64,000 nt of DNA from positions 1 through 64,000 of the forward strand of contig JAKIVC010000012.1 in assembly GCA_021647245.1 (NCBI GenBank). The letters run 5' to 3'. Within the stretch, counting starts at the first letter, position 1; each line of letters opens with the position of its first letter. The stretch is from Gammaproteobacteria bacterium. GTDB taxonomy: Bacteria; Pseudomonadota; Gammaproteobacteria; RBG-16-57-12. The notes below the pieces were generated by a model. It searched no databases. It saw only the letters and a list, made by a program, of their open reading frames with translations, and was not told the DNA's origin. Positions 617 to 63,886 of this stretch are shown here, in pieces. Position numbers and translations under genes: made by a program.

Positions 617-1492
617 TCAACCCCGCTTAGGAAATGTATATCCATAACTATCCAAAACACCACCTGCAACTCGCTCAATAGCCTCAACGTCTTTTGGAGA
701 AAGTTTCCCTAAACTATGTGCATTCATGTTCATGATCTTGGAGTTAAATTCATGAACACTCCAGCCTCTACTAATAATTTCCATAGGCATTGGTGAAATA
801 TCAAGAAACTGGGTAATCGTATTCAGCGTATCGACTGGGTGTTCGGTAAAATCCTCATAAGTGACCGTTAAAAAATTGGTTAGCCCCCCCTTATCTGCTT
901 GAGCAATTTCATCTGAAAGACGCCACTGTCCAGCACATAAATCTATAGGATACCCTCCATTTTTATATGGGCTACCCCAGCGCTTATAGTTAGCCTTGCG
1001 CTGAATCCCCTTCGAAACAGCATAGCCATTCCGGACAATATAAATAAAATAGGCCGGCTTAAAATATTCCTGGAGATATGGCATTCTGGTTAAATTGGAG
1101 ATAGACTTTTCAATGAGATTTCTTGAATCACTTGGATACCAAAGCGACCAGTTTCGCTTTATTTTCTCCGCAGACTCAGCTGCACCAGGCTCATTGGGAT
1201 CGATATTTACATGCTCAAAACATTGCGACCACATTCGAGGCCAACCCTTTTGCTCCGGATATGGCAGCTCGTCCGTTAAAAATGCCCCCTCATTTAACAT
1301 GCCAGACAACAGGGGATGCTTTCTTAAAACACTTGCCAAAAGCGTTGTTCCCGAATTATAACAACCAACAATAAATATCCAACGATCAGGACTAAGCTCA
1401 TGCCCAAAAGGTAACAAGCAACGCTGAACCGATGATTGCATCAATAGCGTTAAATACACTTTTTCAGCATTTTTTTTCAGTAATTTAAACAT
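617..1492 (-). CDS. Sulfotransferase family protein
   Basis: A 291-residue protein with the PAPS-binding 5'-phosphosulfate loop of sulfotransferases at about residues 41-52 (VGCYNSGTTLL). A second motif near residue 150 (YIVRNGYAVSKG) fits the 3'-phosphate binding Arg/Ser element. Family members move sulfate from PAPS to hydroxyl or amino groups of carbohydrates, lipids or proteins. As the last intact gene of the exopolysaccharide locus, sulfation of the polysaccharide is the likely role (inference). The ATG at 1492 is preceded by GGGAGA at a good spacing. A 250-base gap with no gene and then two gene relics separate it from the rest of the operon, so it may be transcribed separately. The acceptor cannot be told from sequence. 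Confidence 0.8.
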   Translation of the reverse strand: MFKLLKKNAEKVYLTLLMQSSVQRCLLPFGHELSPDRWIFIVGCYNSGTTLLASVLRKHPLLSGMLNEGAFLTDELPYPEQKGWPRMWSQCFEHVNIDPNEPGAAESAEKIKRNWSLWYPSDSRNLIEKSISNLTRMPYLQEYFKPAYFIYIVRNGYAVSKGIQRKANYKRWGSPYKNGGYPIDLCAGQWRLSDEIAQADKGGLTNFLTVTYEDFTEHPVDTLNTITQFLDISPMPMEIISRGWSVHEFNSKIMNMNAHSLGKLSPKDVEAIERVAGGVLDSYGYTFPKRG

Positions 1493-9439: not shown

Positions 9440-10618
9440 TTACTCTCCAACAAGCCAAGCAACAACTTGACGACGTACTGATGCGTTCACAAGTAAATGT
9501 GTCGGCAATGTGACTAAATGATTTGAGACAAAATCAGCACCGGGAAAATCGTCACCATAATTCAGGCAAAACCCCTTAATTTCCTTCAGCTTATGCAACC
9601 CCTGAGGGTACATTTGTGATATTCCCAGCTCCCTACCCGAAAGTGATTTATTTTTTCTCGACAGCTCAATATCACCCTCAAGGTAGCACGGAAACCTGAT
9701 TGGAAATGATTCACTCTTTTCCAAGTGAGCCAACAATGAAACACGCCCACATTTTTTTAGCCTATTAAAATAAAAACCAGCGCACTCTCTCCGAGATGCC
9801 TTTAATGTGGGTAACCTCTTCAACAGCCTCTGAAGCAATAACACTCTAAGCCGCCCCATTCTTTCCATGGAGATATAATCGGGATAGACCGTTCTTCCTA
9901 TGCCAAGGAACGGTAGTCTGGCAGGCAGCCAGAAAATGGAGGGTTGAATCAACAGATCATTCATCAGCATCATCAACGCAGATTTAAGCTCTCGGATCCG
10001 ACCTGGCATAGGCATCACTTTATGACGAGATGTAAGCTCCGCACTGATTTCATCACAACTTACTGCCAAGATACCACCACCATTTGTGCTAATTGGTTTG
10101 CCACGGCCAAAGCTATAGACGATGATGTCAGAAGTCATCACCCCTCGCTCTGGATCAATACCTGACTGTGCTGCATCTTCGACCAAATATGCACCAACAC
10201 TATCTGCCAGTTTGCGTGCCTGATCGATGTCCGCACTTTTACTGAAAAAGTGGGTTGAAATAATGCACAATGTTTTATCATGAACAACCGATTTTAATTT
10301 CTGATAATCGAAATCAAGGGTCTCTGGCACCACATCACTGAGCACCATTTTTAGGCCTGCCTCTTCAATAGAGGCGGCAACGGAATAGCAAGTGTAGGCT
10401 GGCACAACAACCTCGCACTTGTCTTTTTTCAGTTTCGCAAGCACTCTGAGTGCTGTAACCAGCGCCGCCTTGCCACTGCAATAGTCATAAACAGCACAGC
10501 CGCCAAACAGCTCAGGCTTCATTTCAGAGTTTTTGTTCATTAACGAGGAGAGTAAGGCACCGACAACGCTGCCCATCCCATGAGTCATTCCAACTGCTGG
10601 CACACAATAAAAACTCAC
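9440..10618 (-). CDS. DegT/DnrJ/EryC1/StrS-family PLP aminotransferase
   Basis: A 392-residue protein of the sugar aminotransferase family. Visible landmarks are the PLP-holding acidic motif VEDAAQSGI, the internal-aldimine lysine in YSFGRGKPISTNGGG, and an N-terminal GKAALVTALRVL segment for the phosphate cup. Relatives convert keto-sugar nucleotides to amino sugars, or act on other keto substrates. The C-terminal half (about residues 200-390) is less conserved than in ArnB/PseC. The GTG start at 10618 lacks a clear ribosome binding site. No sugar 4,6-dehydratase lies in the window, so the substrate must come from elsewhere, or the protein has another role. Confidence 0.8.
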   Translation of the reverse strand: MSFYCVPAVGMTHGMGSVVGALLSSLMNKNSEMKPELFGGCAVYDYCSGKAALVTALRVLAKLKKDKCEVVVPAYTCYSVAASIEEAGLKMVLSDVVPETLDFDYQKLKSVVHDKTLCIISTHFFSKSADIDQARKLADSVGAYLVEDAAQSGIDPERGVMTSDIIVYSFGRGKPISTNGGGILAVSCDEISAELTSRHKVMPMPGRIRELKSALMMLMNDLLIQPSIFWLPARLPFLGIGRTVYPDYISMERMGRLRVLLLQRLLKRLPTLKASRRECAGFYFNRLKKCGRVSLLAHLEKSESFPIRFPCYLEGDIELSRKNKSLSGRELGISQMYPQGLHKLKEIKGFCLNYGDDFPGADFVSNHLVTLPTHLLVNASVRRQVVAWLVGE

Positions 10619-11884: not shown

Positions 11885-12586
11885 TCACTTTTCTGAGCGA
11901 TCGGCCTTAATTTTCGATAAAAAGTCGCCACCTACCTGATCCAAAGCTTTATAGGCTTCAGGATTCAAATGCACATGGTCTCCCCGGTCATACTTAGGAT
12001 CCATATAGCGATTTTCATTTGAAACACGCAGTGCCGCCTCTAAATCCAGCACCGCCAACCCCTGCTTTTCAGCAACTTCGCGTAACCAGTCATTGTAGGC
12101 GGTGAGTTGTTTCATTTTGTTGGGCTTACCCATCACGCCTTTAATCACGCTTTTTATTTTGCTTGTTAGGCCAGTTTGCTCACTGACGGGTACTGAGGTC
12201 GCAAACACGACATCAATGTTCTTTTCAGCCAGTTGCGCTGTCCATTGCGTGATTTTCTTTTTATAATCAGCGATATCTCCCGGGAAATAGACTGAACACT
12301 CTTTTATGATGACCACATCGGGAAGTTCGTTGCGACTGATAAGCTCATCTATTGCGGATGACTTATCGAATGAATCATAAATAGCCACAAATTCCAGATT
12401 AAAACCATCGGCATCGACACGTTCAGCAAGCTCATCAAACTTCCAACCATTGCCAATTGAGGCGCCGACAAGTACTACATTGATATCGTTATCTGGCATC
12501 TTATCCTCCACGGCCATAGAAACACTCGCCATGAATAAGCTACCCATAACAAAAAGAAATACGTTAAATTTATTTTTTAGATACAA
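11885..12586 (-). CDS. Secreted SGNH/GDSL-like hydrolase
   Basis: A 233-residue protein with a signal peptide (basic MYLKNKFN, hydrophobic core, cleavage near VSMA-VE at about residue 26). Block I reads VVLVGASIGNGW, so the nucleophile serine is kept while the usual Asp of GDS is Ala. Block V DHVHLNPEAY supplies the Asp and His. SGNH enzymes in EPS loci, such as AlgX/AlgJ relatives, handle O-acyl groups in the periplasm. The start is TTG at 12586, backed by a very strong AAAGGAGG six bases upstream. It overlaps the end of the preceding acyltransferase gene by 17 bases, so the pair is translationally coupled and may place or remove acyl groups together (inference). Confidence 0.7.
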   Translation of the reverse strand: MYLKNKFNVFLFVMGSLFMASVSMAVEDKMPDNDINVVLVGASIGNGWKFDELAERVDADGFNLEFVAIYDSFDKSSAIDELISRNELPDVVIIKECSVYFPGDIADYKKKITQWTAQLAEKNIDVVFATSVPVSEQTGLTSKIKSVIKGVMGKPNKMKQLTAYNDWLREVAEKQGLAVLDLEAALRVSNENRYMDPKYDRGDHVHLNPEAYKALDQVGGDFLSKIKADRSEK

Positions 12587-13163
12587 CGGTTGCCTCCTTT
12601 TTTAAAAAACGTGCTGGATTACCAATAGCAATGGTTTTCGCTGGCATCGGCTTGGTAACGACACTACCCGCAGAAACCGTGCTATCACCTTCAATATCGG
12701 CCATCACTAAGCTGCCTTCACCCAGCCAAGTCTCATTGCCAATCTTTATCATTTTATAATTAACTTGGGAAGTCGTATTTCCTTCGTTTTCCATATCATG
12801 TTGGTATTTCCCCCCCATAATGGAAACCCTGCTTGAGACAAGAATATTATTTCCTAGGTCAGCAGAGCCGATGATTGAAAAACTGCCGATCACAACACCG
12901 CGCCCAGCGCTGGCAGTGGGATGGGCAAAAAAAGAGGCAAAACCAACCACCAAGTCATATTTACATTCAGTAAGGGTAACGCAATAGAACGAGGTTCGAA
13001 GATATTGGCCTATTTTCCCCGGTACCAGACTGAGCAACTTCGCAGAGAAGCTGAACATCTCTTCAGAGCCAAATAGCTTGTAGATAAGCCAACTTGAGAT
13101 GGAAAGCGGCCATGTCAGCAAATGCATCAGCCAGACAACAACGCCCTTTAACTTATACGACAT
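12570..13163 (-). CDS. LbH acyltransferase (paralogue of the one at 52180)
   Basis: A 197-residue protein. A hydrophobic N-terminal stretch (residues 8-30) is followed by a conserved PGKIGQYLRTSFY region and hexapeptide repeats ending in SAGSVVTKPMPAKTIAIGNPARFL. It is a close relative of the protein encoded at 52180-52758; shared features include PGxIGxYLRxxFY, an EC pair, SFFxHxxAS and xQHxM. Both look like acetyl- or acyl-CoA dependent O-acyltransferases tethered to the inner membrane. It lies between the NadE-like gene and the SGNH hydrolase gene, and all three are tightly packed. Confidence 0.75.
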   Translation of the reverse strand: MSYKLKGVVVWLMHLLTWPLSISSWLIYKLFGSEEMFSFSAKLLSLVPGKIGQYLRTSFYCVTLTECKYDLVVGFASFFAHPTASAGRGVVIGSFSIIGSADLGNNILVSSRVSIMGGKYQHDMENEGNTTSQVNYKMIKIGNETWLGEGSLVMADIEGDSTVSAGSVVTKPMPAKTIAIGNPARFLKKEATVVSKK

Positions 13164-14129
13164 TTAACTACCTATCCCCACCTCTTCGAGCAACAGCGGC
13201 TTCATGTGATGATAGCGGGTAGCGGCGCGCTTGGCCTCAATATCCTTATAGATGAAATTAGCGTGGTCTTCATCTGTAGAGAGCGCGGTGGCCAGCTCAG
13301 CAGCGGGCACATTATGGTTGTAACTCCACAGAGCGATATCCATCTTGTCATAGGGCAGTGCGTAGTAAAACTCATCCTGCCCCTGTGGCATGCTGTAGGT
13401 GTCTGTTGAAGGTGTAGAGTTGCAGATCTCCTCTGGCAGCCCCAGATATCGGGCCAGTGCATAGACCTGAGTTTTATAGAGATGGGCAATCGGCTTTACA
13501 TCAGCTGAGCCATCGCCATTTTTCACGAAAAAGCCTTGGTCATATTCAACTCGATTGGGGGTACCCACAACCGCATAATTTAATCGATCGGCATGAAAAT
13601 ATTCTACTGTTTTGCGAATACGCTGTTTATAGTTGGTGGCAGCCACTACCTGCAAATACTCTTTTAGGCCCATGCGTTTTTCTGAGATTTCGCCCGATGG
13701 GGACTGTACTACCAGATTGAAGTGATTAATCGTCCCCTGTTTCTGACCGGCGATGGCTATTTTGCACTTCCAATCATCACTGTACTCCGGAAATAGTTTT
13801 CGAATCGCCTCATCTCGCCAGCGGTAGCAACCGATCGCTTCCAGTGTAGGGCCAATATTTTCCATCATATGATCCAGCCCATATTTATCCACCACCAACT
13901 GGCCGTAAGAGACGCTCTGTGAAGATGAGTCATGTTCCGGCATTAAAATACCAAAGACCCGCTTGGCGCCCAGCGCCTCAACACAAAGCGCGGTACAAAC
14001 CGCGCTATCAACCCCGCCTGAGATTCCGACCACCAAACCACGGCGATGTAGTTTATTTCTTAGCAGCTCAATCAATCGATCTGCAATTTGTTTAACTTCT
14101 GCCTGCTCATCTATTTTTAACATATCCAT
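13164..14129 (-). CDS. NAD synthase-like (NadE family) PP-loop enzyme
   Basis: A 321-residue protein with the ATP pyrophosphatase loop GISGGVDSA at residues 35-43 and the NadE signature GTPNRVEYDQGFFVKNGDG followed by KPIAHLYKTQVYALA. In NAD synthase these parts adenylate nicotinate adenine dinucleotide and bring in ammonia. The protein is longer than ammonia-dependent NadE (about 275), with an extra segment around residues 120-165, and it has no nitrilase-type glutaminase domain. It sits next to an acyl carrier protein and an AsnB-like enzyme inside a polysaccharide operon, so a biosynthetic amidation or condensation role is as likely as NAD synthesis. Family membership is clear; the substrate is not. 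Confidence 0.75.
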   Translation of the reverse strand: MDMLKIDEQAEVKQIADRLIELLRNKLHRRGLVVGISGGVDSAVCTALCVEALGAKRVFGILMPEHDSSSQSVSYGQLVVDKYGLDHMMENIGPTLEAIGCYRWRDEAIRKLFPEYSDDWKCKIAIAGQKQGTINHFNLVVQSPSGEISEKRMGLKEYLQVVAATNYKQRIRKTVEYFHADRLNYAVVGTPNRVEYDQGFFVKNGDGSADVKPIAHLYKTQVYALARYLGLPEEICNSTPSTDTYSMPQGQDEFYYALPYDKMDIALWSYNHNVPAAELATALSTDEDHANFIYKDIEAKRAATRYHHMKPLLLEEVGIGS

Positions 14130-14187
14130 GATAATTCCGCCCTTCTACGAACCACTTTTAAATTCACTAACAATGAATTTATTTAAT

Positions 14188-14436
14188 TTAGCTTGCTGTT
14201 TTTTTGCTTATAAAAGCAGCAATGTTATTTACAGAATCAAAGTTTTCAGGAATCATCTCATCATCTTCCACTGCAATGCCAAAGGTCTCCTCCAGAAAAA
14301 AGATAACCTCTAGAATTCCGGTCGAATCAATAATTCCTTTCTCAATGAATGAATCATCATCACCCAATGCTGACATATCGTCGGTAAATAGATAGTTTTC
14401 CAGAATATACTCTTTTACCTTATTTTCCACGCTCAT
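14188..14436 (-). CDS. Acyl carrier protein
   Basis: An 82-residue acidic protein with the phosphopantetheine attachment motif GIIDSTGIL, serine at residue 38, and the three-helix pattern of ACPs. The motif is DST in place of DSL, as in many specialised carrier proteins. ATG at 14436 follows AGGTGAATCT. It lies between the AsnB-like and NadE-like genes in one operon, so it is probably a dedicated carrier for an EPS substituent and not the fatty-acid synthase ACP. AMP ligases that could load it are encoded at 50542 and 62327. Confidence 0.85.
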   Translation of the reverse strand: MSVENKVKEYILENYLFTDDMSALGDDDSFIEKGIIDSTGILEVIFFLEETFGIAVEDDEMIPENFDSVNNIAAFISKKTAS

Positions 14437-14459
14437 AGATTCACCTATTAAATTTAATA

Positions 14460-16406
14460 TTATTTAACTGAAAACTTCTCATGAAACTGCTCAATGAACA
14501 GGCTGTGCCATATCTGCGTAGAGAGTATGCCGATAAAGGCCATATTATCCTTATGCCCGATAGCCCGCCCTTTTTTCACTTTCTTAACCAATAGCTGAGT
14601 CCTTTTCGGATCAAAATAGCCAAAACGTTTCACTGTTGATTCTGAGAGCAGCTCTTCGACATAACCCGGCAACCTGCCTTCATGACTGAAAGCGGCGATA
14701 TCGGGGGCACGGTAAGGCTGTTTATAGCGCTTTACGATATTAGATGGGAGGTATTTCCCCATCGCTTTTTTCAATAAAAACTTCTCGTTCAAAACCTTCA
14801 TTTTGAGCTTTGGATGCAATTGATTGGCAAACTCAATCACCCGGTGATCCAAAAATGGAAAACGCCCTTCAATCGAGTTTGCCATCAACATCCTGTCCCC
14901 TTGAGAGCAGAGCAGGTATCCTCCCATCAAAGATTTTGCTTCAATATACTGAGCCCGATTAAAAGAGTGCCAACGGGGCAGTGCCTTCGGCAAGCTATTC
15001 CCTATGATATCATAAGGGTTTTCTGCTAGCTTACTTTTTAAATCATCCGAAAAGAACTCTTTACATTTCGCGGTGGTGACCCAACGCGGTAGATGAGAAA
15101 AATAGGCCAGATTGGGTTGTTCAAGCCCCATTCCAAAGAAGTTTTTCAGATAAGCCTGCCCCTGCCGCTTGGATACATCCAGGTAGGGGTAGAGGCGTTT
15201 TAGCAGCGCGGCTCTAAAGGCTGAATCACTGTTTTTAGCCCAAAACTGGCGGATCTTTGTCTCTTTAAAAATATCGTACCCACCCAGCACTTCATCGGCA
15301 CCCTCGCCGGTCAGTACCACCTTGTAGCCCTGCTGGCGCACCAGACCAGAGAGTAGCCGCATCGGCACCGGTGCGGTTCGTAATACAGGGGCTTCTGTAT
15401 GCCATATGGTATCAACAAAGTTATCCGCCACATCACGGTTTGAGCAGATAATACGGCTATGGTCAGCCCCTAGGTGTTGAATCAGGTCATTCTGATAGGA
15501 TTGTTCATCCAGACCAGACTCTTCAAAACCGATGGAGAATGTCCGAAGGTAGGCATCACTGTGGTTGTGAATAATCGATACCAGCACCGATGAATCCAGG
15601 CCACCGGAGAGATAGGCACCCACCGGGACGTCTGAACGTAATCGAATCCGGGTAGAATCAATCAGAAGGTCGTGCAGCTCGCCCGCAAGCTGCTCATCAC
15701 TGCCACTTCGGTACTCTCCGCTAGCATCCGGGAAGCTCCAATCCCAGTATCGTCGGCAGCTGATCGCGCCGTTTTTTACGGTTAGTATCTCCCCCGGAGT
15801 GACTTCATTGACGCCCTCAAACAGCGACCCCGGGCTCACGGGCGACCAAAAAGTCATCAACTGGTCCAGTGCTGAAAGGTTCAGCCTTGGTGAACTATCG
15901 AAGGTAGAGAGAATAGATTTAACTTCGGATGCAAAAACCAGCCGCTCATGGGTCTGTTGATAGAAAAGTGGAACAATTCCCAAGCGATCACGAATCAGCA
16001 GCAGAGTATTGTTTGGTGCATCCCAAAGAGCGATAGCAAACTGACCATTGAGGTGATTCACAAAATCATCACCATACTCTTCGTAGAGGTGCACAATAAC
16101 CTCGGTATCACTCAGGGTGTAAAAGTGATGCCCCTTCCCCTCTAACTCAACCCTAAGCTCAACAAAATTAAATATTTCACCATTAAAGCTCACCCAGATA
16201 GAGCTATCTTCATTGTGGATTGGCTGTTTTCCGCCCTCCAAGTCAATGATACTCAACCTGGCATGCCCCAGACCGATGTTGTTTTTCACATAACACCCTA
16301 ATCCATCGGGCCCCCGGTGATCTATCTGCGCAACCATACGCATAATTTCATTTTCAGATACCGAGCGTTCCGAGTCGTGATAAACAATCCCCGCTATTCC
16401 GCACAT
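14460..16406 (-). CDS. asnB: Asparagine synthase-like glutamine amidotransferase
   Basis: A 648-residue two-domain enzyme. The N-terminal class II glutaminase starts MCGIAGIVYH, with Cys2 as nucleophile exposed after Met removal, and continues with RHRGPD-type (DHRGPDG) and SFNGEIFNF elements. The synthetase domain begins near residue 240 with the PP-loop YLSGGLDSSVLVSI. True AsnB makes asparagine from aspartate. Relatives in exosortase-A loci are annotated as system-associated amidotransferases (TIGR03108) and probably amidate a polysaccharide substituent. The length fits both. Its neighbours, an ACP and a FemAB-like protein, favour the polysaccharide role. Confidence 0.85.
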   Translation of the reverse strand: MCGIAGIVYHDSERSVSENEIMRMVAQIDHRGPDGLGCYVKNNIGLGHARLSIIDLEGGKQPIHNEDSSIWVSFNGEIFNFVELRVELEGKGHHFYTLSDTEVIVHLYEEYGDDFVNHLNGQFAIALWDAPNNTLLLIRDRLGIVPLFYQQTHERLVFASEVKSILSTFDSSPRLNLSALDQLMTFWSPVSPGSLFEGVNEVTPGEILTVKNGAISCRRYWDWSFPDASGEYRSGSDEQLAGELHDLLIDSTRIRLRSDVPVGAYLSGGLDSSVLVSIIHNHSDAYLRTFSIGFEESGLDEQSYQNDLIQHLGADHSRIICSNRDVADNFVDTIWHTEAPVLRTAPVPMRLLSGLVRQQGYKVVLTGEGADEVLGGYDIFKETKIRQFWAKNSDSAFRAALLKRLYPYLDVSKRQGQAYLKNFFGMGLEQPNLAYFSHLPRWVTTAKCKEFFSDDLKSKLAENPYDIIGNSLPKALPRWHSFNRAQYIEAKSLMGGYLLCSQGDRMLMANSIEGRFPFLDHRVIEFANQLHPKLKMKVLNEKFLLKKAMGKYLPSNIVKRYKQPYRAPDIAAFSHEGRLPGYVEELLSESTVKRFGYFDPKRTQLLVKKVKKGRAIGHKDNMAFIGILSTQIWHSLFIEQFHEKFSVK

Positions 16407-16415
16407 ACAATTCCT

Positions 16416-17489
16416 TCAAGGTAAATTTTTAACCAGCATCGGCCCTAAAAACTTGGTTAAAGCCAGTGGCAGCTTTTGCCATATCTTAATCGCAAGCTGA
16501 TACTTAGGGTTGTTTGGATTAAGCTGAGGCAGCTCACCGCCATCCCGCATCCAGTAATGCCAATAGAGCTGCTTTGGTTTTGCTCCCCACTGTTTTTTGA
16601 AGCGGAAGGTTCCGCTATCAGTGGATGAGCGCCCAAAATCAAACTGATCAAAGCCCTGTTCAATCGAATACTTCAACACCTCCCAATAGAGGAACATATT
16701 GACACCGATTTTATTAACCTCCCGCAGGGTGGATGCCCAAGGAATCTCCATCTGTCCGTTGTAACCCAGCAAAAATGCGGCGGCAACAGGCTTCTCTTCA
16801 TGGCGTACAATAACAATGTGGACACTATCTGAAAAAGTTTCGATAATCGCCCGGAAGAAGTTTTTACCGTAGACCGGTGTCCCCAAGTCGCGCATATTGC
16901 GCGCAAAGACATCGTAAAATTGATCGAGCAACTCTCCTTTACCAGTCAGCACTTCTACGCCTTCGCGAATGGGGCGTTTAATCTGTGAACGACGTTTGGC
17001 ACCAATCGCCTTCCACAGGATATCGGGGTCGTCCGGCAGATCAAGCAACATCGCAACCTTGTCGAGTCGAGCAGGTAGTATTGATTGCCGCTCCTGCACA
17101 TCCCTGAACTCGATATGGCTGACATTGAGGGCCTTGCCCTGCTCAATGGCACTCTCCATCAGGGCTTGTTCGGTGCTTTCGTCAATAGCCACCGCCCCCC
17201 CGTAGTTAAAATAGGGGAGAGAGACCATGTAGTTTCCAAACAGCATACTTTTAATATGAATAATGGGCAGTACACCCACAACCTTACCTGCCTGATCTTT
17301 CGCGAGAAAGCAGTAGTTATGATGACCAAACAGCTGGTTGATCATCTTTGGCGCTGCACTGTGATGGTACAGGCTGCACCGCTCTGATTGCGATACATAG
17401 CCATCCCAAGCACTGAAATCGGCACTTTTTAGCCTCTCTACCCGAATCGCCATTTGCCGCTGTGTTGTATCCAATATTTCCTGTTCCAT
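16416..17489 (-). CDS. FemAB-like protein of XrtA/PEP-CTERM systems
   Basis: A 357-residue protein of the FemAB/GNAT-related family that uses aminoacyl-tRNA or acyl donors. The first domain carries SLPYFNYGGAVA and a typical IEFRDVQE segment. The second has ARNMRDLGTPVYGKNFF, PVAAAFLLGYNG and DFGRSSTDSGTFRFKKQWG, motifs that characterise TIGR03019 proteins of exosortase loci. Classical FemX enzymes add amino acids to peptidoglycan precursors; the EPS versions are thought to modify the sugar chain, with no defined substrate. It lies nine bases from asnB and just downstream of the deacetylase gene. Confidence 0.85.
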   Translation of the reverse strand: MEQEILDTTQRQMAIRVERLKSADFSAWDGYVSQSERCSLYHHSAAPKMINQLFGHHNYCFLAKDQAGKVVGVLPIIHIKSMLFGNYMVSLPYFNYGGAVAIDESTEQALMESAIEQGKALNVSHIEFRDVQERQSILPARLDKVAMLLDLPDDPDILWKAIGAKRRSQIKRPIREGVEVLTGKGELLDQFYDVFARNMRDLGTPVYGKNFFRAIIETFSDSVHIVIVRHEEKPVAAAFLLGYNGQMEIPWASTLREVNKIGVNMFLYWEVLKYSIEQGFDQFDFGRSSTDSGTFRFKKQWGAKPKQLYWHYWMRDGGELPQLNPNNPKYQLAIKIWQKLPLALTKFLGPMLVKNLP

Positions 17490-35458: not shown

Positions 35459-35601
35459 CGCACTACCCCTCTTTTTAACCACAAGCAAGGGCGATCATCG
35501 CACATTGAATCCATCACATGCTTATCCATAACCCATCACCTCTTCAAATGTACTTTGTGCGCCACTCACCCAGATACATTAGCGCCAGAAAAAAACAGCA
35601 C

Positions 35602-35630
35602 TTGAAAGTTCTCTTAATGTTCTCTATCCT
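35602..35630 (+). promoter_or_regulatory. lexA promoter with GTTC-N7-GTTC operator in the spacer
   Basis: A -35 hexamer TTGAAA (35602-35607) and a -10-like TATCCT (35625-35630) are exactly 17 bases apart. The spacer is itself the direct repeat GTTCTC-TTAAT-GTTCTC (35608-35624), which contains GTTC-N7-GTTC. That spacing and sequence are the known LexA operator of alphaproteobacteria. A repressor bound there would cover the promoter, giving LexA autoregulation. The translation start follows 26 bases after the -10, with AAGGGA as ribosome binding site. Confidence 0.65.
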
Positions 35631-35655
35631 TCAAAAAACGATCAAGGGAAAGTCT

Positions 35656-36261
35656 ATGCCCACACCACTCGAACAAAAAATAGTTCAAGCGCTGCGCCAT
35701 TACATCGCCCAGCACGGCCAAGCCCCCACCCTGCAAGCCCTTGGGAAGCGCGTCGGCATCCACTCCAAAGGCACCGTTCACCGCTACGTCAACTCCCTTA
35801 TTGACCAGGGACTGCTAACCCGTGACCCACACAAAGGGTGGCGAAGCATTTCTCTTACCCAAAGCAGCACTGGAGATCTGCACACTCTGCCACTCTTGGG
35901 GCGTATTGCCGCAGGCAAACCGATTGAAGCGATCCCTGACAACCACCAGCTCAACCTGATGACCCTCTTTGAGGGAGAGGGGCGATATGCGCTAAAGGTG
36001 CAAGGAGATTCGATGATGGATGCGGGTATTTTAAATGATGATTGGGTGGTTATCCTCAGCACCGCGCAAGCAGCGCAAGGAGAGATTATTGTGGCACTGA
36101 TTGACAATGAAGAGGTGACACTCAAACGACTGGGTGCACGCAACAAAGAAGAGGTCACCCTCACGCCTGAAAACAGCACCCTGCAGCCGACCTGCTATTC
36201 AGCGGAGAGAGTGCAGATTCAGGGTGTTTTAATAGGCCAAATACGCCACTACCCGAGATAG
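35656..36261 (+). CDS. lexA: LexA-family SOS repressor
   Basis: A 201-residue protein with a winged helix-turn-helix (residues 1-65) and an S24 autoprotease domain. The self-cleavage site is Ala86-Gly87 (GRIAAGKPIEA), the nucleophile is Ser119 (VQGDSMMDAG) and the general base is Lys157 (VTLKRLG), so RecA-stimulated self-cleavage should work. The recognition helix reads SKGTVHRYVNSL, unlike E. coli (SPNAAEEHLKAL) but similar to the SKSGIHRLI pattern of alphaproteobacterial LexA. The ATG at 35656 has an AAGGGA site; the frame extends upstream, but that would run through the promoter. The next gene, a Y-family polymerase, begins three bases after the stop. Confidence 0.88.
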   Translation: MPTPLEQKIVQALRHYIAQHGQAPTLQALGKRVGIHSKGTVHRYVNSLIDQGLLTRDPHKGWRSISLTQSSTGDLHTLPLLGRIAAGKPIEAIPDNHQLNLMTLFEGEGRYALKVQGDSMMDAGILNDDWVVILSTAQAAQGEIIVALIDNEEVTLKRLGARNKEEVTLTPENSTLQPTCYSAERVQIQGVLIGQIRHYPR

Positions 36262-36264
36262 AAG

Positions 36265-37491
36265 GTGGAGCACTCACTGTGGGACAGAGCCATTATCCTG
36301 ATGGATATGAACGCTTTTTTTGCCGCCATCGAGCAACTCGACCACCCCGAGTGGCATGGTAGACCTATCGCCATCACGAATGGCCAGCTGGGCACCTGCA
36401 TTATTACCAGCTCATATGAAGCACGCTCATTTGGCATCAAAACCGGCATGCGTTTGCGCGAAGCACGCAAGCTCTGCCCCCATTTGATTCAAGTGGCCTC
36501 ACGACCAAGGCGCTACACAGCGGTCTCCACTGCCATTATGGCGGGGTTACAGGAGATCACCCCCGACATTGAAATATTCTCTGTGGATGAGGCATTTCTG
36601 GATGTCACGCATGTTCAAGCACTACACGGCCCACCCGGTCGCATTGCACGCATGGTTAAACTCGCCGTTTTTAAAGCCTCCGGATTACTCTGCTCGGTGG
36701 GTGTCAGTGGTGATAAAACCACCGCCAAGTATGCCGCAAAACAGCAAAAACCCAATGGGCTCACCCTTATCCCCCCTTCACTAACAGCACAACGATTGGC
36801 CAATGTGCCCGTCACAGAGCTTTGTGGCATTGGCAAGGGCATCGGGGCATTCCTGGCGCGCCACGGCGTGCACTATTGTGGTGACATGCAGCGCCTGCCA
36901 ATCAGTGTTCTGGCGGAGCGCTATGGCAATGTGGGGCGGCGGATCTGGTCTATGTGTCAGGGCAAGGACCCCTCACCGGTACAAAGCAATATCGCAGCAC
37001 CCAAAAGCATGGGGCACGGAAAAGTGATTCCACCTGATTCACGCAGCGGCCAGCTGATACTGACCTATCTGATGCATATGAGTGAAAAAGTAGCGGCACG
37101 CTTGCGACAACACCATATGGAGGCCATTCACTTCTGGATCGGCATTAAATCCAACCAGGGCTGGCTAGGCGAAAGGTGTCGTCTGGCTCAACCGGGCAGT
37201 GATGGTCGCTCATTGCAGGCGCTGTGCCACCAGGTGTTTCAGCGGCAGTGGCATGGACAGGGCATTTATCAGGTACAGGTCACCGCGCTAAACCCGCAGC
37301 CCGCACATCTGCAAATGGAGCTGTTTACAGAGCGCGACCCTCGCCGCTATGCGCTCAACCAAGTAATGGATTCTATTAATCAGCGTTATGGTGACTTCAC
37401 TCTGGCACCAGCAAGGCTCTTGTCGCGCTCAAAGATGCCCGATGTTATTGCCCCTGCCTGGCAACCCAGCGGGCCGCGAAAAAGTGTATAA
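36265..37491 (+). CDS. Y-family translesion DNA polymerase (DinB/UmuC-like)
   Basis: A 408-residue polymerase. Palm-domain metal ligands are Asp14 (ILMDMNAFFA) and Asp108-Glu109 (FSVDEAFLDV); the steric and fingers motif SSYEARSFGIKTGM follows the usual pattern. A helix-hairpin-helix thumb (TELCGIGKGIGAFLARHGV) and a little-finger domain (about residues 230-350) follow. All catalytic residues are kept, so unlike ImuB it should be active in bypass of damaged bases. The start is GTG at 36265, three bases after lexA, so both are co-transcribed and DNA-damage inducible by inference. The pairing resembles umuDC, but here the partner has a full DNA-binding domain. Confidence 0.85.
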   Translation: MEHSLWDRAIILMDMNAFFAAIEQLDHPEWHGRPIAITNGQLGTCIITSSYEARSFGIKTGMRLREARKLCPHLIQVASRPRRYTAVSTAIMAGLQEITPDIEIFSVDEAFLDVTHVQALHGPPGRIARMVKLAVFKASGLLCSVGVSGDKTTAKYAAKQQKPNGLTLIPPSLTAQRLANVPVTELCGIGKGIGAFLARHGVHYCGDMQRLPISVLAERYGNVGRRIWSMCQGKDPSPVQSNIAAPKSMGHGKVIPPDSRSGQLILTYLMHMSEKVAARLRQHHMEAIHFWIGIKSNQGWLGERCRLAQPGSDGRSLQALCHQVFQRQWHGQGIYQVQVTALNPQPAHLQMELFTERDPRRYALNQVMDSINQRYGDFTLAPARLLSRSKMPDVIAPAWQPSGPRKSV

Positions 37492-50466: not shown

Positions 50467-50541
50467 GTGGAAAGAGAGATAAAAGAGCCCACTCCACACA
50501 CCCTCATCCCCTTACATATTCATCACATAAATGGATTGCTC

Positions 50542-52119
50542 GTGAAGACACAGATGCACCACATCATCAGCCACAGCGCCGAATGCTACCCTGCCAATAT
50601 AGCGGTCAAGCACAAGCAGGTGTCTGTTGATTACCACACCCTTTCAGCTCTCATTACAAAAGCAGCTGCGGGTTATCAACAGCTGGGGTTGGAGAGATCC
50701 GAACGGGTCGCAATCTACCTTCCCAAACTCATCGAAACCGTGACCGCCTGTTTTGCTGCAAGCTGTGCCGATGGGGTGATGGTGCCGGTCAATCCAATGC
50801 TTAAACCAGAGCAGGTCAAATATATACTGAACGATTGCAATGCCCGAATTCTGGTGACCTCCAGTCAAAAAGCCGCACAACTCAAAACAGTGCTTGACCA
50901 GTGCCACGACCTCCACACACTCATTATCGTAGATAAAAACCCATTAAATTTTGCAGCGCCGCCTCACCTTACAATAATTGACTGGAACGCCTTTACAAAC
51001 CTTAGCCACAGCACGCCGCATAACCAGAATATCGACAGTGATATGGCGGCCATCCTCTATACCTCGGGAAGTACCGGCAAACCAAAGGGAGTGGTACTCT
51101 CCCATCGCAACATTATTGCGGGTGCAGAGAGTGTCGCCAGCTATCTGGGCAACCGCCAGAGCGATAAAATTTTGGCGCTACTACCCTTCAGCTTTGACTA
51201 TGGGTTCAGCCAATTAACCAGCGCTTTTGTCAGCGGTGCCCGAGCCCACCTTCTCGACTACCTACTGCCTCGAGAAGTGCTCAACCTCATTACTCAAGAA
51301 CAGATTACCGGACTGGCCGCCGTTCCAACACTGTGGAACCAGTTGACACAATTAAAGTGGCACCAGGAGATCAAACAGTGCCTGCGCTACATCACCAACT
51401 CCGGCGGTACCATGCCGGCGGCCACCCTGCAAAAACTGCGCGAGCAGCTACCCGAAACCGACATCGTTTTGATGTACGGCCTGACCGAAGCTTTTCGTTC
51501 AACCTATCTGCCACCCGATCAGCTTGATAAAAAGCCCGGCTCAATCGGCCAAGCGATCCCGAATGCAGAGGTGATGGTACTTAGGGAGGATGGTAGCCCC
51601 TGCGCTGCCGGTGAACCCGGGGAGCTGGTGCACCGGGGCGCTCTAGTTGCACTCGGTTATTGGAACAACCCGCAGAAGACAGCCAGACGTTTTAGGCCTA
51701 TTCCCTCTCATCAACCGGGCTATCGGCCTGAAACAGCGGTTTGGTCAGGAGATAAAGTCTATCGCGATGAGGAGGGTTATCTCTATTTTATCGGGCGTGA
51801 AGATGAGATGATAAAAACCTCAGGGTATCGTGTCAGCCCAACCGAGGTGGAGGAAGTACTCTATGAGAGCACGCTGGTCGAGCAGGGCGTTGTTTTTGGT
51901 GTCTCGCATCCGCTACTAGGGGAAGCAGTTCTTGCCGTTGTCACACTACATGAAGAGAGCGAACCTAGGTTGTTGGAAAGATACTGTAAACAACACCTAC
52001 CCACCTTCATGCAGCCAAAAATAATTATTAAAACAACACCGCTGCCACACAATCCTAATAGTAAAATTGATCGTGCAGGAATTTCCAGGGAGTATCAGGA
52101 TTACTATCTGGCCGAGTAA
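50542..52119 (+). CDS. Exosortase-A-associated AMP-forming acyl ligase
   Basis: A protein of about 525 residues from the ANL superfamily. It shows AAILYTSGSTGKPKGVVLSH, LMYGLTEAFRSTYLPP, SGDKVYRDEEGYLYFIGRED and a C-terminal NSKIDR with the catalytic Lys. The AFRSTYLPP signature and length fit TIGR03098, a ligase found only with XrtA EPS systems, which probably loads an acyl or amino-acyl group onto an ACP. It is placed about 17 kb outside the main EPS block. The open frame reaches 50467 (GTG). GTG at 50542 or ATG at 50554 align better with the family start, but none has a strong ribosome binding site. Confidence 0.85.
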   Translation: MKTQMHHIISHSAECYPANIAVKHKQVSVDYHTLSALITKAAAGYQQLGLERSERVAIYLPKLIETVTACFAASCADGVMVPVNPMLKPEQVKYILNDCNARILVTSSQKAAQLKTVLDQCHDLHTLIIVDKNPLNFAAPPHLTIIDWNAFTNLSHSTPHNQNIDSDMAAILYTSGSTGKPKGVVLSHRNIIAGAESVASYLGNRQSDKILALLPFSFDYGFSQLTSAFVSGARAHLLDYLLPREVLNLITQEQITGLAAVPTLWNQLTQLKWHQEIKQCLRYITNSGGTMPAATLQKLREQLPETDIVLMYGLTEAFRSTYLPPDQLDKKPGSIGQAIPNAEVMVLREDGSPCAAGEPGELVHRGALVALGYWNNPQKTARRFRPIPSHQPGYRPETAVWSGDKVYRDEEGYLYFIGREDEMIKTSGYRVSPTEVEEVLYESTLVEQGVVFGVSHPLLGEAVLAVVTLHEESEPRLLERYCKQHLPTFMQPKIIIKTTPLPHNPNSKIDRAGISREYQDYYLAE

Positions 52120-52179
52120 AAAATAGGCATAACCCGCCAATCACATGATTTAATACGACAAACAGCTAAGGGCTCGATA

Positions 52180-52758
52180 ATGAAGTTAATACTAAAACGG
52201 ATCGCTGAAGTCATCAGTTTTTTGTTACTTATTCCCATTTTGGCTTTGGTTATAATGGAGAGAAGGTTGCTACCCCAATCACACACTATTTATACCCTTT
52301 TCGCACAATGCATGGCCACTATTCCCGGCATTATCGGTGACTATCTGCGACGTGTTTTTTACCGGTTTGCCATCAAAGAGTGTGGTAGCGACTTCACCAT
52401 CAGCTTCGGCTCATTCTTTTCGCACCGTGATGCCTCTGTGGGTGACCGGGTATACATTGGCGCAGGCTGTATCGTGGGAAAAGTGGCGATACACAATGAT
52501 GTTTTGATTGCCAGCAAGGTCAGTATTCCCAGTGGTCGCCACCAGCACCCGATGAACTCGTCACAAGGTGGCGGTGCATCCAGAGAGGTCTGCTATGAGC
52601 AACTGACGATTGGTCAGGGCGCGTGGATTGGCGAAGGCGCCATGGTACTGGCCAGTATCGGCGAGAGGTCGGTAGTCGGCTCAGGCAGCGTGCTGGTAAA
52701 GCCCATTAGTGCCAACGTGACGGTTGCTGGAAACCCTGCCAAAGAGATTTCAAAGTAA
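52180..52758 (+). CDS. LbH acyltransferase (paralogue of the one at 12570)
   Basis: A 192-residue membrane-tethered acyltransferase. Hydrophobic residues 10-26 are followed by PGIIGDYLRRVFYRFAIKEC and a left-handed beta-helix ending in VGSGSVLVKPISANVTVAGNPAKE. It shares the same layout and motifs as the protein encoded at 12570-13163 (SFFxHxxAS, SxVSI, xQHxM, WxGEG). It lies 60 bases after the exosortase-associated ligase, which suggests that the two act together: one activates an acyl group and the other places it on the polysaccharide. Confidence 0.75.
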   Translation: MKLILKRIAEVISFLLLIPILALVIMERRLLPQSHTIYTLFAQCMATIPGIIGDYLRRVFYRFAIKECGSDFTISFGSFFSHRDASVGDRVYIGAGCIVGKVAIHNDVLIASKVSIPSGRHQHPMNSSQGGGASREVCYEQLTIGQGAWIGEGAMVLASIGERSVVGSGSVLVKPISANVTVAGNPAKEISK

Positions 52759-62326: not shown

Positions 62327-63886
62327 TCAGCTACTCTGCTGAGACGCTGCGAGCAACTGCTCCTTCAATACCTTTTTACGTATTTTGCCACTCGCCGTTT
62401 TGGGTAGTTCGTCTACAAAAATGACCTCTTTAGGCAGCTTATAGGGTGGCAATTTTTCACGGCAATAACGCTTAACCTCTCGATCAGAGCAGCCCCCCTG
62501 ATCTGCCAAAACAATGCATGCGAGTATACTCTCTCCCAAAATAGAATCTGGCATCCCAATGACCGCAACCTCATGCACACCCGGTAACTCATGAATAACC
62601 TCTTCAATCTCCTTGGGACCAATGCGATGGGCACCACTTTTAATCATGTCACTTTTGCGGCTAACAATATAAAGAAAACCCTCCTCGTCTATTTTCGCCA
62701 AGTCTCCGGTCCATAAGAGGCCATCGCGCAGCACAACGGATGTTTTATCAGGATTATTCCAATACCCACTCATAATGTTTTTTCCTGCCGCGACAATCTC
62801 GCCCACCTCACCGACTGCCACCGGTGTTCCATCATCTTTCAACACCTTTAGTTCAACACCGGGGATCGCCTTGCCAATAGAACCGGCTTTGCGAAAGAAG
62901 TCTGCGGGATCAAGGTAAGAGAGCCGTGCAGATGCTTCTGTCTGACCGTACATAATATAGACATCCGTATTCGGCAAAATACTCTTCACCTCTTTGGCCA
63001 GAGCCGGCGCCATTGCACCTCCAGCCTGGCAAATATAACGAAGGGATGGAAATTCATACTGCCTTATTGCTGAACGGTTGATGAAAATAGCAAAGGTTGA
63101 TGGCACACCAGAAAAGCCCGTCACTTGCTCCTCTTTCATCATTTTCAAAATTACATTTGGGTAGATAAAGCTTTGATTAACCACCAGAGAACCACCCACA
63201 CAAAAATGAGTCAGTAGTAGAGAGTTACCATAGGAGTAAAAAAATGGCAGCACTGCCATCGCCTTATCACGTTCGGTCAACTGCAGATACTCAACAATTG
63301 ACCGGGTATTTTCCACTAAATTAGCGTGGCTCAGCATCACCCCGTTAGGGTCACCAGTCGTACCAGACGTGTAAATAATTTGAGCTAAATCAGATGGTTG
63401 GATCGATATATCTAATACAACAGGATTTTCATTATTCTCTGACAACTCCTCAAAGCTATCGCACTGAATCGACAGCTCTCCCAACACCTCTTTATCGTGG
63501 CAACTTAATAGCAAGCCTTTCAAGGTGGTGGTGCCCTTTAACAGTGGCTTAAAATACTTAATAAAAGGCACGTCAGATAATACACATGATGCACCGCAAT
63601 TTTTCACTTGATAGGCGACAGCATCAACAGACGTTTGGCTATTCATCGCAACAACAACACCACCGGCTATCAATACACCAAAATAGTAAGTAATGTAGTT
63701 AACGGGCTTATCTTCCAGGATAATTACCCTGTCACCCAAAACCACGCCCTTGCGATACAGCCAGCTCGCAACAATTAAAGCATCCCTCAACAACTCGGCA
63801 TACGTTACCCGTCGGCCGGTTTCGATCACGGCCTCTTTTTCAGGGAAACTAGCCACAGACTGGATCAAAAAGTCATGAATGAGCAT
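62327..63886 (-). CDS. AMP-forming acyl-CoA/ACP ligase
   Basis: A 519-residue ANL ligase. Motifs are IIYTSGTTGDPNGVMLSH (with Asn where Lys is usual), MYGQTEASARLSYL, LLWTGDLAKIDEEGFLYIVSRK and LPKTASGKIRKKVL with the catalytic C-terminal Lys. The N-terminus MLIHDFLIQSVASFPEKEAVI resembles exosortase-associated and secondary-metabolism ligases. It could load the ACP encoded at 14188 or a different carrier. ATG at 63886 follows AAGGTG. It lies outside the EPS block, convergent with zapE with no base between the two stops. Confidence 0.85.
   Translation of the reverse strand: MLIHDFLIQSVASFPEKEAVIETGRRVTYAELLRDALIVASWLYRKGVVLGDRVIILEDKPVNYITYYFGVLIAGGVVVAMNSQTSVDAVAYQVKNCGASCVLSDVPFIKYFKPLLKGTTTLKGLLLSCHDKEVLGELSIQCDSFEELSENNENPVVLDISIQPSDLAQIIYTSGTTGDPNGVMLSHANLVENTRSIVEYLQLTERDKAMAVLPFFYSYGNSLLLTHFCVGGSLVVNQSFIYPNVILKMMKEEQVTGFSGVPSTFAIFINRSAIRQYEFPSLRYICQAGGAMAPALAKEVKSILPNTDVYIMYGQTEASARLSYLDPADFFRKAGSIGKAIPGVELKVLKDDGTPVAVGEVGEIVAAGKNIMSGYWNNPDKTSVVLRDGLLWTGDLAKIDEEGFLYIVSRKSDMIKSGAHRIGPKEIEEVIHELPGVHEVAVIGMPDSILGESILACIVLADQGGCSDREVKRYCREKLPPYKLPKEVIFVDELPKTASGKIRKKVLKEQLLAASQQSS

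Follow-up and report, generated by a model that had tools for sequence, protein, structure and literature searches.

What would a protein with the fold of a nicotinamide adenine dinucleotide (NAD) synthase be doing beside an acyl carrier protein (ACP) and an AsnB-like amidotransferase, in the middle of a locus for exopolysaccharide (EPS) synthesis? The question is raised by positions 11,885 to 16,406 of a stretch of 64,000 nucleotides (the window) from contig JAKIVC010000012.1 of a gammaproteobacterium (assembly GCA_021647245.1), in which a first-pass annotation had described five tightly packed genes. Our results indicate that the NadE-like gene belongs to a conserved core that consists of AsnB, ACP, AMP-forming ligase and NadE-like genes. 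This four-gene module is strongly supported as such, and its genes very probably form one functional unit. The grouping of a NadE-like protein with a carrier, an amide-making enzyme and a ligase recurs in many bacteria, and the NadE-like protein therefore probably helps to make not NAD but an unusual amide-bearing group that is destined for a sugar chain of the cell surface. There is an even chance, in our judgement, that the window cassette represents the local form of a module of wide distribution, which builds an amide-bearing acyl group on a dedicated carrier. The five genes of the cassette, and the transferase gene that precedes them, are the following.

11885-12586, minus strand: SGNH/GDSL-like protein with a signal-like N-terminus (PF13472, 32.9 at a cut-off of 32.9, borderline).
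12570-13163, minus strand: hexapeptide-repeat acyltransferase-like protein with a hydrophobic N-terminus (weak matches to hexapeptide-transferase NCBIfam models, the best at 44 bits).
13164-14129, minus strand: NadE-like PP-loop ligase of the PRK00876 subfamily, with no glutaminase domain (NF002048, 482.8 bits).
14188-14436, minus strand: dedicated ACP with a DSTG phosphopantetheine motif (PF00550, 20.2 at a cut-off of 20.8; 131 with a module-specific profile).
14460-16406, minus strand: AsnB-like amidotransferase, with the MCG glutaminase start and the PP-loop intact and the aspartate loop altered (TIGR01536, 496 at a cut-off of 267).
16416-17489, minus strand: FemAB/GNAT-fold XrtA-associated transferase, a candidate acyl or aminoacyl transferase (TIGR03019, 388.7 bits at a cut-off of 260).

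All five cassette genes have open frames at the positions given, and their family assignments agree with those of the first-pass annotation. Going downstream from AsnB, the intergenic distances are 23, 58 and 0 bases (to the ACP, NadE-like and acyltransferase genes, respectively), the SGNH and acyltransferase genes share a 17-base overlap, and the FemAB gene, located 9 bases upstream of AsnB, is part of the same packed run. An RNA structure was looked for at the junction of the NadE-like and acyltransferase genes, and none was found there. The location within an XrtA/PEP-CTERM EPS locus, which had also been claimed, was borne out by seven XrtA-associated families that score above their cut-offs (TIGR03109, exosortase A; TIGR03007; TIGR03006; TIGR03018; TIGR02917; TIGR02915; and TIGR02916).

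The NadE-like protein is a member of NCBIfam family NF002048/PRK00876, its score being well above the curated cut-off of 313. It keeps the PP-loop SGGxDS (S37, G38, G39, D41 and S42, in common with 13 housekeeping NadEs) and also N166, R170, R172, T190, N192, E195, D206 and K219, the adenylation or metal residues of the catalytic frame of NadE, which are likewise shared with these 13 enzymes. The best matches of its predicted structure (mean confidence, pLDDT, of 91.9) in the PDB are NadEs, with TM scores, by target length, of 0.82-0.88 for the top matches. The protein is similar to the NH3-dependent NAD synthetase in fold, PP-loop and adenylation residues, but it differs from NadE in an insertion of about 45 residues at about positions 114-159, where three strands are predicted, in many positions that are fixed in the 13 housekeeping NadEs (a comparison set made up of glutamine-dependent enzymes only), and in its ACP-linked neighbourhood. 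That a NadE fold is able to take another substrate is illustrated by the nicotinamide mononucleotide (NMN) synthetase of Francisella (3fiu, by entry title). The genome to which the window belongs bears a separate housekeeping NadE of 548 residues on another contig (G000:C16:34554-35300), and a second NadE, with an open frame of 548-826 residues, was found in all 16 of the checked genomes that have a PRK00876 protein. These genomes thus do not have the NadE-like protein as their sole candidate for NAD synthesis.

The surroundings of the NadE-like gene were compared in 66 loci, which were retrieved from named genomes by using the NadE-like protein as query and which span Pseudomonadota, Myxococcota, Thermodesulfobacteriota, Bdellovibrionota, Spirochaetota, Actinomycetota, Verrucomicrobiota, Planctomycetes and other groups. 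A first comparison, with the window and Sinorhizobium proteins, had placed ACP, AsnB and AMP-forming ligase genes next to most NadE-like loci. With profiles, an ACP was found within 5 kb of the NadE-like gene in 57 of the 66 loci, a ligase in 45 and an AsnB in 42, and 34 loci had the three together. Many of the contigs end close to the NadE-like gene; when only the 40 loci flanked by 5 kb in either direction are considered, the corresponding numbers are 38, 31, 30 and 27. The profiles were built from the 66 loci themselves together with the window and two Sinorhizobium loci, so that these counts are not independent. The set also includes two strains of one species (L021 and L022) and a locus, L023, that probably comes from the same assembly as one of the genomes used below (G001). 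An independent sample was provided by 398 genomes of the phylum, including that of the window, in which PRK00876 proteins over the cut-off were searched for. Fifteen of them had such a protein, that is, the genome of the window and 14 of the other 397, the latter belonging to 10 genera. In these 14 genomes the module ACP and ligase lie within 5 kb of the NadE-like gene in every case, and an AsnB-like gene does so in 13 (it is missing from L103); the exception to independence is L108, whose ligase is identical to that of L052. The same three profiles matched none of 15 control regions around housekeeping nadE genes (those of the 14 genomes and of the window's own genome), 13 of which were of 19.9 kb, the remaining two being of 12.7 kb and 15.9 kb; the control did not extend to the additional copies of NadE in G268 and G387. 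A match to PRK00876 over the cut-off was also recorded in Methanosarcina acetivorans, the archaeal control genome.

Loci with the four genes add up to 54, with 13 gene orders and with all genes on one strand in 48 of them, and they range from Sinorhizobium megaplasmids to Actinomycetota and Bdellovibrionota; that lineages so far apart have arranged the genes differently speaks in favour of a functional unit. The most constant neighbour of the NadE-like gene is the ACP, which fits chemistry on a carrier; with respect to the ornithine lipid ACP family NF052616 the ACP of the window scores below the cut-off (62.8 against 130). It is likely, in our opinion, that the substrate of the NadE-like protein is carried by an ACP, and that the protein has no part in making NAD. 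The conserved association of NadE-like, ACP and AsnB genes within 5 kb thus upholds part of the five-gene set that had been proposed, whereas the hexapeptide acyltransferase and the SGNH protein turned out to be optional, and an AMP-forming ligase that belongs to the core had been overlooked. Of the two outcomes that the first-pass annotation had named as counting against its idea, namely a NadE-like protein that is the sole NAD synthase of the genome and a lack of conserved neighbours, neither was obtained.

The AsnB-like protein shows the features of asparagine synthetase B, including the N-terminal Cys of the glutaminase (MCG start), GATase_7 and Asn_synthase domains, and the PP-loop. In the alignment the aspartate loop of asparagine synthetase is lost, LRTAP standing against TTIRAS in Escherichia coli (the loop that binds aspartate) and being two residues shorter. 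A loop form of the ExPxxR type was found in 42 of 60 module AsnBs by means of a text pattern, which missed 18. The protein falls outside the XrtA amidotransferase family TIGR03108 (423.3, against a cut-off of 816.9), and its closest solved relative is the hydroxyamidotransferase 7ylz, of the AsnB family, with which the alignment is only partial.

Regarding the chemistry of the module, we infer a substrate, an order of amidation and a final acceptor, which would be connected in three steps. Firstly, an AMP-forming ligase, in the window one encoded elsewhere in the genome, would activate a carboxylic acid and load it on the arm of the ACP; acylation of this ACP by this ligase has been reported for the pair of Sinorhizobium meliloti (PMC7232532). 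Secondly, the AsnB-like and NadE-like PP-loop enzymes would adenylate and then amidate the free carboxylate or carboxylates of the carrier-bound acid, with ammonia released by the glutaminase of AsnB, the NadE-like enzyme being devoid of one. Thirdly, a GNAT-fold transferase (FemAB or GNAT) or a hexapeptide transferase would attach the group to an amino sugar in the polysaccharide of XrtA type, where the secreted SGNH protein may carry out trimming. The product may well be a carboxamide-bearing acyl group, and whether it is the EPS of the window locus that is decorated by the acyl group appears to us evenly balanced. Given an acid on a carrier, a pair of PP-loop enzymes that form amides, and GNAT-fold or hexapeptide transferases, the scheme put forward in the first-pass annotation is plausible in outline. 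More tentatively, and with the chances somewhat below even, we propose an undescribed module, common to several phyla, in which an enzyme with the NAD synthase fold and an AsnB-like enzyme amidate a carrier-bound acid, providing carboxamide acyl groups (N-methyl-carboxamide ones in some lineages, through a HemK-family enzyme) for surface polysaccharides.

The core may be joined by acyltransferases, SGNH proteins and HemK-family methyltransferases, none of which is obligatory. Relatives of the hexapeptide acyltransferase lie beside the NadE-like gene in L028 and L110, and a GNAT-type gene is found within 5 kb in 23 of the 66 loci. Another SGNH-like family recurs in five of the 66 (L030, L040, L060, L072 and L085); identity of the window SGNH protein with this family was rejected, since the profile of the family gave no match to it. 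A HemK-family methyltransferase is present in 10 of 88 scanned loci (9 distinct ones, two being strains of one species, with the gene about 10 kb away). Two examples score above the cut-off of the HemK family and below that of PrmC, and a separate PrmC was found in the six genomes with a module HemK-family gene that were tested. According to the NCBIfam descriptions, HemK-family enzymes carry out methylation of glutamine amides, which fits an amide product. A gene of a DegT-type aminotransferase family was observed near the module in six loci (9440-10618, minus strand, in the window; L023; L028; L063; L072; and L082).

Several observations weigh against the proposed module chemistry, or against its extension to the window, many of them related to the ligase. 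Three of the four genes are present within about 5 kb in the window cassette, the ligase being absent, and it is absent also from the related locus L023 and, in the sequence available, from L033, L042, L043, L046, L053, L063, L067, L083, L084 and L085, several of which have short flanks; L086, L088 and several contig ends are incomplete for the module as well. Other genes of the window that bear on this point are the following.

62327-63886, minus strand: AMP-forming ligase of the module clade, a candidate for the missing ligase (646 bits with the module ligase profile).
50467-52119, plus strand: TIGR03098 exosortase-A-associated acyl-CoA ligase, a second candidate (735.9 bits at a cut-off of 592).
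52180-52758, plus strand: paralogue of the cassette hexapeptide acyltransferase, adjoining the TIGR03098 ligase (174.8 bits with the HexAT profile; PF00132).

Module ligases read 493-733 bits with the profile that gave 646 bits for the first candidate, and in the tree this protein falls into a clade of 33 rows, all the rest of which are ligases from cassettes (support 95/82). Nevertheless, its standing as the settled fourth gene is weakened, because G002, a genome of the same genus, keeps both candidate ligases (92% and 83% identity) without a NadE-like gene over the cut-off, and because no ACP lies beside the 62327-type ligase in the stretches of G001 and G002 that were examined. As for the pair formed by the TIGR03098 ligase and the hexapeptide paralogue (50467-52758, plus strand), it lies well outside the run of EPS genes; it is kept in G002 (L155), and in G001 (L154) the ligase is found without the paralogue. 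The A4 motif of the ligases is variable (FDYG, FGYG, YSYG, YAYG, HTYG), and the loaded acid may therefore differ between loci. Further adverse points are that L059, with flanks of 10 kb on each side, and L078 have no partner at all, that the HemK-like enzyme could methylate a protein instead, that no EPS genes adjoin the Sinorhizobium set, and that a KASIII-like gene lies next to the ACP in four Burkholderiales loci (L034, L035, L036 and L038), which points to chain building rather than to simple decoration. The PRK00876 protein of L059 (10001-10954), a Planctomycetes locus, has 58% identity and no module partner within 10 kb on either side.

Among the systems already known, the accessory set TIGR03098/TIGR03099/TIGR03108 of XrtA/PEP-CTERM loci is similar to the window in the type of locus and in having related ligase and AsnB-like families, and the window has a true TIGR03098. 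It differs in that the cassette AsnB is far below the TIGR03108 cut-off and in that the genome has no TIGR03099 match over the cut-off, so that the TIGR03099 decarboxylase was rejected as a partner. To our knowledge, a NadE-like protein is not part of that set as described. In the butirosin BtrI/BtrJ/BtrK and Dlt systems a dedicated carrier receives an acid, which is either changed while bound or handed on, and which is then transferred, and the module proposed here resembles them in carrier loading followed by transfer; we know of no NadE-like or AsnB-like amidation in either. A close counterpart of the core is the set on pSymB of S. meliloti (L115), with the order AsnB, ACP, ligase and NadE. 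Its ACP and ligase would correspond to SMb20651 and SMb20650, a naming that is based on replicon and gene order because the L115 record is unannotated, and the same ligase and ACP would then stand within an AsnB-ACP-ligase-NadE set; the window cassette differs from it in having no internal ligase and in its EPS setting. According to PMC7232532, the genes of the ACP SMb20651 and the ligase SMb20650 are transcribed together, the ligase yields acylated SMb20651 in E. coli, and SMb20650 could not take the place of FadD on long-chain fatty acids. PMC5686131 places SMb20651 among the ACPs whose function needs further investigation. Searches of the literature rendered no paper uniting ACP, asparagine synthase, NAD synthase and polysaccharide, and none uniting NAD+ synthase, asparagine synthase and ACP. 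Related searches, at the level of titles and the beginnings of abstracts, rendered no description of the four-gene set, which the 2009 SMb20651 or the 2011 exosortase-locus N-acyl amino acid synthase papers might contain; neither is the set described in the available parts of PMC2922099, PMC11631085, PMC9386255 and PMC10315480.

The alternative that survives best, though we regard it as rather doubtful, is that the product of the module is a lipid or a small molecule that diffuses, with the ACP-bound amide as starter or building block, and that its placement among EPS genes is incidental here. The four-gene operon of Sinorhizobium, which stands alone with no glycosyltransferase adjacent, would be in keeping with it, as would the KASIII-like genes mentioned above and the relationship of AsnB to 7ylz; in natural product pathways, acids that are free or linked to a carrier are amidated by AsnB-like proteins. 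However, the set is flanked by XrtA EPS genes both in the window and in L023, that of Azospirillum lies beside glycosyltransferases and a polysaccharide deacetylase, and a deacetylase profile matches within 5 kb in 10 of the 66 loci. The association with EPS genes that had been noted therefore holds for the window, but such genes are not always nearby, as Sinorhizobium illustrates.

It can also be the case, as an unlikely special form of the amide-bearing acyl group that we favour, that an amino acid, for instance glutamate or aspartate, is loaded, that its side chain is amidated on the ACP, and that a FemAB or GNAT transferase passes it to an amino sugar in a BtrI-like manner, as in butirosin synthesis. 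Relatives of FemAB are aminoacyl transferases. FDYG appears in 16 of 68 ligase rows, its Asp being aligned with the A4 Asp of amino acid adenylation domains, and wherever the ligase that accompanies a HemK-family gene could be read (8 loci), it was of the FDYG type, two further HemK loci being unreadable. On the other hand, the module-type ligase of the window has YSYG and lacks that Asp, like most gammaproteobacterial ones, and amino acid loading as a general rule was left unsupported because the A4 Asp is limited to part of the ligases.

Even less probable is that AsnB makes uronamides on the sugar chain, in the manner of WbpS and independently of the ACP pair, with the NadE-like protein loading or amidating something unrelated. 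AsnB-like proteins take part in uronamide synthesis in O-antigen loci, and the XrtA amidotransferase TIGR03108 is a standing family of EPS loci; against this, AsnB accompanies the ACP, ligase and NadE-like genes in 13 of the 14 independent genomes, in differing gene orders, and it does so also where no sugar genes adjoin. Finally, a role as sole or second NAD synthase, tied to its neighbours by chance or by regulation, was rejected as very improbable for the NadE-like protein, in spite of the 'NAD(+) synthase' label of PRK00876 in NCBIfam and of the NadE fold, PP-loop and metal or adenylation residues it keeps, given the separate full-length NadE in 16 of 16 genomes, the ACP and ligase partners in 14 of 14 as against 0 of 15 around housekeeping nadE, and the insertion and many differences at positions fixed in housekeeping enzymes.

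Amidation of a carrier-bound acid by the conserved set, if true, would add a third role to the two that the NadE fold has in the synthesis of NAD and of NMN, and the orphan ACP SMb20651 of S. meliloti would gain a function; the set represents a concrete and testable pathway for a function-less ACP long known in a model symbiont. In at least six phyla PRK00876 appears to have a role other than the one implied by its database name, NAD(+) synthase, and NAD metabolism is therefore probably mis-annotated in them. For chemists, the module suggests that acyl groups bearing an amide are worth looking for in bacterial polysaccharides.

Two further observations were made in the window. A sulfotransferase gene (617-1492, minus strand; PF13469, 68.7 bits) lies at the far end of the run of EPS genes and suggests a sulfated polymer, and a LexA-like/S24 peptidase gene stands next to a DNA polymerase IV-like gene (35518-37491, plus strand), forming an SOS-type pair.

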